From contig SVSN01000012.1 of the NCBI GenBank assembly GCA_015064285.1, forward strand, positions 1-58,376: a DNA stretch of 58,376 nt. The letters are read 5' to 3'. Under the pieces are notes generated by a model. That model was not told the DNA's origin and searched no databases. It was given only the letters and a program-made list of their open reading frames with translations. Shown here one piece after another: positions 3,157-58,376 of the stretch; within the stretch, counting starts at the first letter, position 1, and every line of letters starts with the position of its first letter. A program made the position numbers and the translations under genes. This DNA comes from Oscillospiraceae bacterium. GTDB lineage: Bacteria > Bacillota > Clostridia > Oscillospirales > CAG-272.

Positions 3157-3240
3157 TCGTAACAGCACCTCTCTTTCTTGTGTTACTCGCTTAGTCGGCA
3201 TACAATTAAATGTATTTAAGGAACCTGACATCATGCGGCA
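3157..3240 (-). ncRNA. Probable L21 leader (autoregulatory 5' UTR)
   Basis: About 84 bases lie between the predicted transcription start and the rplU ATG. Firmicute rplU operons commonly have a structured L21 leader here, and size and position match. I did not confirm the fold by covariance. The assignment is by context plus size. Confidence 0.55.
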
Positions 3241-50767: not shown

Positions 50768-50796
50768 TTGACTTGTCACGGCTTTGATGTTATAAT
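50768..50796 (+). promoter_or_regulatory. Promoter of the GH127-GH78 operon
   Basis: TTGACT (50768-50773), a 17-base spacer and TATAAT (50791-50796). The repeat element begins 20 bases downstream and so lies inside the transcript. Confidence 0.82.
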
Positions 50797-50818
50797 ACAA
50801 ACAGTTCTATTTGTATTA
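50793..50818. promoter_or_regulatory. Operator-like inverted repeat at the GH127 promoter
   Basis: TAATACAAA (50793-50801) and TTTGTATTA (50810-50818) are perfect complements separated by eight bases. They start in the -10 and end in the repeat's first bases. Part of the right arm comes from the repeat, so part of the symmetry may be accidental. Confidence 0.45.
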
Positions 50819-51051
50819 GCCGATTGCAAAACTCTTGTAAAGGGGGAACGCGGCTTTCTTGAAAGAAAGCCTGGCAAAGAACTTTAAAAAGGTTTTGCTG
50901 GATATAGTGACTGCAATTCCATGTGCCCCTATATATAGAAATTGCAAAACACCAGAAATAGTAAAGCGAGCTCCTGGGGGCCTCTACCCCAGTCGCCACA
51001 GAACGTTTTCGAGTGCTTGATTTCGTTTTTTCTGAGTTTTGCAATCGGCTA
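50817..51051 (+). repeat. Structured dispersed repeat, copy 1 (MITE-like, transcribed)
   Basis: 235-bp unit with perfect 18-bp terminal inverted repeats TAGCCGATTGCAAAACTC (50817-50834) and its complement (51034-51051). Flanks TCTATTTGTAT (50806-50816) and TCTATTTGTCT (51052-51062) differ at one of 11 bases, as a target duplication would. Inner stems include a GGCTTTC/GAAAGCC hairpin, GCAATT/AATTGC, and GCGA..CTGGGG with CCCCAG..TCGC (50966-50996). Removing the unit and one flank joins the promoter at 50768-50796 directly to the SD of the GH127 gene. It carries no convincing reading frame. Copy 2 is at the window's right edge. Confidence 0.88.
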
Positions 51052-51079
51052 TCTATTTGTCTGATAAGGAGATCATTTT

Positions 51080-53005
51080 ATGAAATATGTTGTAGAATAC
51101 AAGGTACCGAACATACTCCGGATTCCGGAAGCGGGAATGGTTTCGCTGGACGGTGAGATCGGCGCCCGTTTTGACCGTTTTGTATACGAACGGATCACCG
51201 GGAAATTCGCCATTGATGAAATCTGGCGGGAAGCGGAAGAATGTTTCTTTGATCAGTATGACGATGAATATGCTGCCGGTATGTGGCGTGGGGAATTCTG
51301 GGGCAAGCTGCTGCTGTCCGCCGCCAGAGTCTGCGCTATGAAAAACGATCCCCAGCTGGAAGAAGATATCCGCACCTCTGTGTACCGTATGCTTTCCATG
51401 CAGAGAGCGGATGGCTATCTGAGCACGTACCGGGACTGTGACAGTCTGTTTCCGCCGAAAAAAGAAGATGCCGTACGGGATGTGGGCTGGGAATGCCCTT
51501 ACAACTGGAACATCTGGGGGCAGAAATATACCCTTTGGGCATTGATCGAGTGTGCCATGCTGCTGGATGATCCCATCGTGCTGAACGGCTGTGTGAAGAT
51601 GGCAGACTTTATCGTAAATCAGGTACACCGGCTCGGCTGCCGGATGAAGGACATCGGTACCATGAACGGTATGGCGCCCTGTTCCATCATGAAGCCTCTG
51701 CTGGTGCTGTACCGGCTGACAGGTGACACCAGGTATTACGACTTCTGTGTGGAAATCGCCGATCAGTGGGAAAGAGAAGACGGCGAGCTGCCCAATCTGA
51801 TTTCCAATTCCCTCTCCGGTGTACCGGTTTCCAACTGGAGCGACCGTGCCAAAGGCTGGTATGCCAAGGCATATGAAATGATGTCCTGTCTGGACGGGAT
51901 CTGCGAACTGTACCGCTGCAGCGGGAACGAAACCTATCTGAAAGCGCTGACCATGTTCTGGGATACCACAAAGGAATCCGAAACCAACATTCTGGGCAGC
52001 GTCGGATACTGCGAACAGTTTTTTGATGCGGCTTCCCATCCCAACGCTGCCACGGAAATCTGTGATGTCATCCACTGGATGCGTCTGTCTTACGAACTGT
52101 TCCGGCTGACCGGGGACGCCAAGTATATGGACGCCATGGAAAAAGCTTTCCTGAACGCTTTCCTGGCTGGGATTTATGAAGACGGCAAAACCGGAGCATT
52201 CTTTGTCCGGAGTGCCGGCCGTCACTGGACTGCAGAACCGCAGGTACAGACCAAGTATCAGCACTGCTGCGTGAACAATGCTGCCAGAGGCTTCACCAAT
52301 GCGGCAGAATCCATCATTATGGCCGGGGACGACGGATACTACATCAATATGTACATCCCCACCCGGGTACATTTCGGGGAAACTTCCTTCCGGATCAGCT
52401 CCGGGTATGTGGACAACGGCAATATTTCCATCATTATCCGCGGTGCTGAGGCGGGAACCAGACTCCGTCTGCGCATCCCCGACTGGTGCCGTACCATGAC
52501 TGTCATCTCCCGGAACGGGGCGGAAGATATCACAGACTCCTATACTTCCCGTTACGGATATGCAGATGTGGTGCTTCAGGAAGGCGACACCATTGTGAAA
52601 GTACGCTTTGACATGACCCCCGAGGTTATGGACACCCCTGCAGGCAATATTGAACTGCCGGAAACCGATTATCACAGACTGCGCTGGTGTGACTCTGTTG
52701 TGGGTCCCTGCGGCAGAGAACAGATGCTGTATCACCCTATGAGCGTTGTACGGCGCGGCCCGCTGATGCTGGCACGTTCCAAGAGAGTGGGCAGCACCGA
52801 AGCGGAAATGTTCGGCGGCGAAACTGTATTCGGCAAGGAACGCACCTGCACTTCCGTCCGTACCATCCGTCACGACCGGCTGCTGACCGCCTGCCGCATC
52901 CAGCTTTCCTGTGAAGGGGAAGAAAAGACATACATCATGTGCGACTATGCTTCCGCCGCCAACCGGGATCTGGAAGATGTGCGCTTCTTCTCCATGTATA
53001 TTTGA
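51080..53005 (+). CDS. Glycoside hydrolase family 127 protein (beta-L-arabinofuranosidase type)
   Basis: 641 residues with an (alpha/alpha)6 barrel followed by beta domains. Residues match the zinc-thiolate site of characterised GH127: Glu and Cys in ATEICDVIHW (near 335-338) and paired Cys in YQHCCVNNAARG (near 395). GYCEQFFDAASHPN precedes them. No signal peptide, so cytoplasmic. The exact sugar is not read, since DUF1680/GH127 proteins vary. SD AAGGAG eight bases before the ATG. First gene of the plus-strand operon, downstream of the repeat. Confidence 0.9.
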   Translation: MKYVVEYKVPNILRIPEAGMVSLDGEIGARFDRFVYERITGKFAIDEIWREAEECFFDQYDDEYAAGMWRGEFWGKLLLSAARVCAMKNDPQLEEDIRTSVYRMLSMQRADGYLSTYRDCDSLFPPKKEDAVRDVGWECPYNWNIWGQKYTLWALIECAMLLDDPIVLNGCVKMADFIVNQVHRLGCRMKDIGTMNGMAPCSIMKPLLVLYRLTGDTRYYDFCVEIADQWEREDGELPNLISNSLSGVPVSNWSDRAKGWYAKAYEMMSCLDGICELYRCSGNETYLKALTMFWDTTKESETNILGSVGYCEQFFDAASHPNAATEICDVIHWMRLSYELFRLTGDAKYMDAMEKAFLNAFLAGIYEDGKTGAFFVRSAGRHWTAEPQVQTKYQHCCVNNAARGFTNAAESIIMAGDDGYYINMYIPTRVHFGETSFRISSGYVDNGNISIIIRGAEAGTRLRLRIPDWCRTMTVISRNGAEDITDSYTSRYGYADVVLQEGDTIVKVRFDMTPEVMDTPAGNIELPETDYHRLRWCDSVVGPCGREQMLYHPMSVVRRGPLMLARSKRVGSTEAEMFGGETVFGKERTCTSVRTIRHDRLLTACRIQLSCEGEEKTYIMCDYASAANRDLEDVRFFSMYI

Positions 53006-58145: not shown

Positions 58146-58174
58146 ACTATAGCCAATTGCAAAACTCTTGTAAA
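58146..58174 (-). promoter_or_regulatory. Hybrid outward promoter at the left end of repeat copy 2
   Basis: On the minus strand TTTACA (58169-58174, inside the repeat), a 17-base spacer and TATAGT (58146-58151, across the junction). Points at the SDR gene 52 bases away. The -35 is conserved in copy 1, where the junction gives only TAATAC. Confidence 0.6.
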
Positions 58175-58376
58175 GGGGAACGCGGCTTTCTTGAAAGAAA
58201 GCCTGGCAAAGAACTTTAAAAGATTTTTGACTGGATATAGTGACTGCAATTCCGTGTGCCACTATATATAGAAATTGCAAAACACCAGAAATAGTGGAGC
58301 GAGCTCACGGGGACCTCTACCCCGTTCGCCACAGAACATTTTCGAGTGCTTGATTTCGTTTTTGGTGAGTTTTGCA
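58150..58376 (+). repeat. Structured dispersed repeat, copy 2 (last 8 bases outside the window)
   Basis: Same orientation as copy 1. My hand alignment gives about 16 substitutions and two single-base indels over 227 bases. The left terminal repeat TAGCCAATTGCAAAACTC has one change; the right one is cut after GAGTTTTGCA. In the 58299-58329 hairpin the stem is ACGGGG with CCCCGT, against CTGGGG with CCCCAG in copy 1, so two base pairs have changed on both sides. The indel shifts all reading frames, so no common protein is encoded. Target duplication cannot be checked here because the right flank is absent. Confidence 0.85.

Follow-up and report, generated by a model that had tools for sequence, protein, structure and literature searches.

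A MITE in the leader of a GH127 gene of an Oscillospiraceae bacterium, and the fixed spacing between its insertions and the word GGAG

The locus considered here raises the question of what kind of DNA lies between a sigma-70-like promoter and the AAGGAG motif and start of a GH127 gene, and of how it came to be placed there. The window, meaning the whole stretch of DNA analysed (58,376 nucleotides), is the entire contig C8, one of 134 contigs in an assembly of 3.2 Mb whose completeness is rated at 73%. At 50817-51051 lies a unit of 235 bp that starts with TAGCCGATTGCAAAACTC and finishes with its exact reverse complement, giving the 18-bp perfect inverted ends of the preliminary description, and its flanks, identical at 10 of 11 bases, bear out the near-perfect duplication reported there; the promoter left after removal of the unit and the second copy in the window are likewise as described, this copy reaching query base 227 of 235 and stopping there because the contig ends at 58376. 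No reading frame of at least 90 aa is confined to the unit, which holds at most 78 codons anyway, and a search of Rfam gave just a sub-threshold match to c-di-GMP-I-UAU (19 bits, with 65.9 needed). The unit thus has the makings of a MITE, being short, bounded by terminal inverted repeats and without a transposase gene. The GH127 leader keeps its promoter and Shine-Dalgarno sequence and is longer by a structured segment of 235 nt and a further 11 nt; AAGGAG begins 3 nt past the duplication, its GGAG 5 nt past. The features of the locus are:

50768-50796, forward strand: sigma-70-like promoter (TTGACT-17-TATAAT) of the leader entered by the MITE
50806-50816, no strand: target duplication copy TCTATTTGTAT
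50817-51051, no strand: MITE, 235 bp, non-coding, recognised by its ends, copies and duplications
50817-50834, forward strand: left terminal inverted repeat, 18 bp
50852-50871, forward strand: internal palindrome GGCTTTCTTGAAAGAAAGCC, belonging to a module widespread in the genus
50970-50996, forward strand: internal hairpin showing compensatory changes between copies
51034-51051, reverse strand: right terminal inverted repeat, 18 bp
51052-51062, no strand: target duplication copy TCTATTTGTCT, 10/11 identical
51066-51071, forward strand: AAGGAG, Shine-Dalgarno sequence of the GH127 gene and proposed target motif
51080-53005, forward strand: downstream GH127 beta-L-arabinofuranosidase-like gene (Pfam PF07944)
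58150-58376, forward strand: second copy, cut by the contig end

Dispersed copies of the unit have been identified throughout its own genome, where a search returned at least 42 matches, itself included (a lower bound, 40 of 90 candidates having been scored); the full query (positions 1-235) is covered by 15 of the 42, some others share the core alone, and near-identical copies (97%) are present. Terminal 16-mers with up to two mismatches occur 50 times in this genome, against once for a reversed control. Pairing of ends gave 38 pairs, from which those of 230-340 bp were retained as 35 two-ended copies (21 in G000, 11 in G013, two in G014 and one in a viral contig), 20 of them flanked by exact 10-13 bp duplications; pairs of 61, 761 and 2063 bp were left out, the last (in L031) covering two host genes and being a degenerate MITE fragment paired with another MITE rather than an element. 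Of 59 genomes searched, one being the unit's own, 19 gave matches at E 0.001, with those over approximately the whole length in G000, G013 and G014 and most same-genus matches corresponding to a short module at query 20-76. The MITE end (up to one mismatch) is found in six of the 25 genus genomes and is numerous in three alone, at 46, 29 and 10 places. Two IMG/VR viral contigs carry a 331-bp variant, inserted at one shared site, and phage and plasmid records gave no match to the MITE. In four loci (L026, L028, L030 and L069) an extra hairpin insert of the GTTGCTATGCAACTC / TCGACTACGTCGAA type brings the MITE to 281-331 bp, and an exact 18-bp MITE end lies in L032 (approximately 3172-3189) within the 3'-terminal part of a reading frame, the remainder being absent, perhaps as a remnant.

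An element-free leader was found in the relative G013, where the region before the orthologous GH127 gene consists of a promoter, approximately 20 nt and AGGAG, with no MITE; orthology was judged on the gene alone, which is 85% identical over its first 423 residues. The preliminary description had read the unit as a non-autonomous transposon insertion, a reading that would fail if there were no other copies and no empty allele; other copies exist, and the G013 leader lacks the element. With exact 10-13 bp duplications around dispersed copies, an element-free ortholog and, in another genome, an autonomous element with matching ends (below), the assignment of the unit as a MITE is supported; its ends, its duplications and the element-free leader are established by direct observation.

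Beyond this assignment, the copies reveal a rule of target position that the earlier reading did not contain. The best match to AAGGAG lies 12-17 nt from one element edge in 35/35 copies, and at least five of its six bases are found within 12-18 nt in 32/35, compared with 6.6% of random positions. Where the duplication is exact (20/35), the AAGGAG frame equals duplication length plus 3 without exception, with paired values (duplication length, frame) of (10,13) in one copy, (11,14) in five, (12,15) in seven and (13,16) in seven, and the offset of the exact word GGAG from the duplication end is +5 in 20/20. Offsets were scored at 48 sites (35 MITE and 13 insertion sequence, IS); for the exact-duplication sites of both kinds GGAG is at +5 in 30/33, the other 15 offsets tested sum to two, and the random either-side chance is 0.8%. 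A is frequent at both bases preceding GGAG (22 and 21 of 27). The 15 MITE copies that lack an exact duplication comprise seven with one mismatch in the best duplication, five of which fit the rule and two do not; four with two or three mismatches, one of which fits; and four with no duplication. The window copy is among those that fit, via its one-mismatch 11-bp duplication. The elements face either way with respect to the gene, 12/35 being co-oriented. As duplication length varies and the spacing to GGAG is fixed, one cut is therefore fixed to the motif and the other variable.

A candidate autonomous partner emerged from a scan of contigs from 84,980 species for TTTTGCAATNGGNTA with AAGGAG coming 12-18 nt later, which gave 61 loci, part of them in unrelated phyla and probably chance matches. 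One of these, L163 (CANQLX010000005.1, uncultured Clostridia, Lapin-013 bin48), is a 1702-bp element with one 476-aa gene, ends TAAGCGATTGCAAAAG and CATTTTGCAATCGGCTA, and a 13-bp exact duplication followed by AGA and then AAGGAG. The preliminary description had called for a transposase gene with the same 18-bp ends: L163 has a transposase gene between matching ends in another genome, 15 exact terminal bases being in common at one end, and none was found in the unit's own genome. MITE and L163 IS have ends alone in common, their interiors being unrelated; the ends on which an L163-type transposase would act are of the form TAGCCGATTGCAAAAC. Two further loci at contig ends, L180 and L200, look on our reading like ends of this same IS.

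The same spacing has been observed for the IS insertions, where 10 of the 13 with exact duplications have GGAG at +5 (L163, L236, L237, L240, L250, L255, L265, L266, L268 and L269), a set to which G602 and G663 contribute three copies apiece; since L163 came from a scan requiring AAGGAG at 12-18 nt, the count excluding it is 9/12. The exceptions are L242 (off the position), L248 (GGGG at the place) and L218 (a 14-bp repeat with no GGAG, embedded in a larger repeat). The 13 derive from 26 loci examined, of which 12 were end-plus-duplication candidates and eight were scored, together with L163 and four further copies; L249, L251 and L252 (one-mismatch duplications), L253 (false span) and L267 (two abutting elements) were left out, L251 and L252 showing AAGGGG where GGAG is expected. 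For 15 loci with no usable duplication, a TIR-like end with an AAGGAG-like site (5/6) 12-18 nt off was seen in 9/15. MITE families L196 and L208 of other hosts, from the scan conditioned on AAGGAG, also fit the rule with one-mismatch 12-bp duplications; L196 has an 18-bp end identical to that of the window MITE and a different interior. The fixed spacing, and an autonomous element with like ends and the same spacing, are likewise established. In the Clostridia MAG loci L158, L172, L176, L201 and L203, a conserved leader (TTTTGCAATCGGCTATCAAA..AAGGAG, then a hairpin) precedes similar coding starts, and is perhaps an old fixed element end.

The L163 transposase, the only one tested for domains, carries DUF772 (37.6 bits) and DDE_Tnp_1 (27.4 bits), both above cut-off, in keeping with the IS1182 family. 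Against the NCBIfam IS1182 model NF033551, with a cut-off of 270 bits, the L163 protein scores 52.9 and nine relatives 45.7-82.9, so that all 10 transposases fall below the score by which family members are recognised. In an alignment of 15 sequences D148, D285 and cysteines 330, 356, 370 and 374 are invariant and E415 is nearly invariant; comparison of the transposase with solved structures gave no significant match.

The earlier statement that the window holds no transposase can be extended to the whole of its genome as judged through two families alone, neither DDE_Tnp_1 nor DUF772 having a match in the 73%-complete assembly, where a search with the L163 protein also gave none. The mobilising enzyme, which that description placed outside the window, was not located in the unit's own genome. 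Matches to the transposase were recovered in one of the 25 genus genomes (a single weak 58-aa match), in 7/394 genomes of the order and in 47/391 of the class, many of them partial; eight plasmid records match, the best being Butyrivibrio pCY360 and a Roseburia plasmid, and viral contigs and phages contain no relative. Twenty DDE_Tnp_1 loci of the genus were rejected as partners, as no element end (up to three mismatches) lies nearby, and no autonomous element was reached from lone MITE ends in six loci. Contigs commonly terminate within MITE copies, as the window does at 58376 and many G013 contigs do, and these assemblies may therefore lack repeats, the missing IS among them.

It is highly probable, in our assessment, that the MITE is moved in trans by an IS1182-related DDE transposase that inserts at a position fixed to GGAG. 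It is inferred that the L163-type group is responsible, that GGAG is recognised by the transposase itself, and that the host has, or once had, a copy of the enzyme. By analogy with DDE transposases in general, the enzyme would synapse both ends and contact GGAG; it would join one end at a point 5 nt ahead of the motif, and the second end would go to the opposite strand, 10-14 bp further out, with gap repair of the staggered cut generating the 10-14 bp duplications. AAGGAG is the hosts' usual Shine-Dalgarno sequence and hits within genes would mostly be lost, leaving surviving copies in 5' leaders, immediately ahead of ribosome-binding sites and in either orientation.

Whether the motif or the gene start is recognised bears directly on this reading, and a host feature of gene starts (the ribosome, SD/anti-SD pairing, open leader DNA or a guide RNA) could be proposed to pick the target in place of the transposase. 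A start codon follows GGAG within 15 nt at 34/35 MITE sites (ATG at 32, GTG/TTG at two, none in L011), though most GGAG words lie elsewhere: the window contains 390, of which 55 precede an ORF start, and a crude gene model divides them into 17 SD, 335 coding and 36 other (several of the last resembling missed SDs). With GGAG common and mostly off gene starts, the 34/35 MITE sites call for selection that removes coding hits, or for recognition of bases beyond GGAG. The IS copies of G602 argue against the involvement of gene starts, as L237 (at GAT TTG GAG GTG) and L265 (at ACA TGG GAG GAG) interrupt reading frames that remain open on either side of the IS, the interrupted pieces matching HATPase/Hpt-like (Hpt below cut-off) and methyltransferase sequences; an initial placement of L237 beside 16S rRNA was discarded, Rfam having given none. 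For MITE L011, likewise, no start codon follows the GGAG within 15 nt, and L250 lies at the GGAG of a putative tRNA-Ser 5' fragment (our own reading, not called as a tRNA by the tools run). With two IS insertions in coding genes, the DNA motif GGAG, rather than translation, therefore seems to be read, and selection of the target by a host feature is considered unlikely.

Survival could also be invoked with an ordinary MITE of little target preference, the copies upstream of SDs being those spared by selection; insertions in coding sequence would disappear, and MITEs are mostly intergenic. Selection cannot, however, set a one-base spacing while duplication length varies, as it does around the peak at +5, and this account is given very little credence. 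Less probable still is that the unit is now a conserved leader RNA cassette, retained for regulation and no longer mobile. The single-strand fold of the unit is better than that of shuffles (z -4.8 and -6.0, in part owing to the inverted ends), and among 22 aligned cores one internal hairpin has 97.6% of cells paired with changes on both sides, a covariation score of 0.433 versus 0.182 in shuffles (0/500 as high) and numbers of paired cells and of cells changed on both sides that 0/500 shuffles reach; against this, pairs changed on both sides were matched by 48/500 shuffles and pair types by 498/500. Wobble intermediates are almost absent, so that selection on a DNA hairpin or templated palindrome correction is as possible as an RNA function. 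The occurrence of both orientations, the exact duplications, the ortholog lacking the unit, the near-identical copies and those in viral contigs all speak against retention as a leader cassette.

The interior of the MITE is common to elements with other ends (AAGTMAAYGATGATTAACT) and AAGAATT-like flanks, one core thus occurring in two MITE types; eight AAGTMAAYGATGATTAACT-ended elements were found by pattern, in L027, L029, L033, L039, L041, L042, L044 and L100, often after stop codons and with an exact 7-bp duplication in 2/8. The module AAAGGGGAACGCGGCTTTCTTGAAAGAAAGCCTGGCAAAGAACTTT (window 50838-50892; L052-L064) appears in many contexts and in most of the matching same-genus genomes.

In anatomy the element is ordinary, sharing with bacterial MITEs such as Correia, RUP and MITEAba12 (PMC10969869 among the sources) short non-coding length, inverted ends, duplications, many copies and mobilisation in trans; it is unlike them in its variable 10-14 bp duplications and in an insertion point fixed to GGAG at one base, and it is this target rule that is unusual. 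The transposase shares DUF772 and DDE_Tnp_1 with the IS1182 family (IS1182, IS1272), whose NCBIfam model gives its top, partial-length match, although scores of the L163 group lie far below the cut-off. According to PMC5678879, the IS1182-family element IS1272 takes the place of inverted repeats and makes no duplication, whereas the L163 group makes 10-14 bp duplications beside GGAG. A fixed distance from a conserved host motif is shared with the dif/pdif-targeting IS1202 group, which inserts 5 bp from its motif (PMC10132070); the L163 group differs in that the motif is the Shine-Dalgarno core before many genes, and in its ends and duplication lengths. No IS or MITE directed to GGAG or to the Shine-Dalgarno sequence was found in the open-access literature searched.

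Few bacterial transposons are known whose target is set to the base by a short motif, and none known to us targets a ribosome-binding site. A broader proposal, to which we give slightly less than an even chance, is that the group uses the Shine-Dalgarno sequence as an integration signal, the enzyme reading GGAG to the exact base, so that its MITEs would regularly be built into 5' leaders and spread structured and possibly regulatory leader segments, differing in core and sharing the same ends, over many genes. If the GGAG rule holds true, mobile DNA would enter the leaders of many genes with the start signal intact, and insertion sites would be predictable from sequence. As a compact transposase, the L163-type enzyme would further lend itself to work on asymmetric target recognition, in which one cut is fixed to the motif and the other variable (10-14 bp); the cysteine-rich segment inserted between its second D and its E is a candidate target-reading part.
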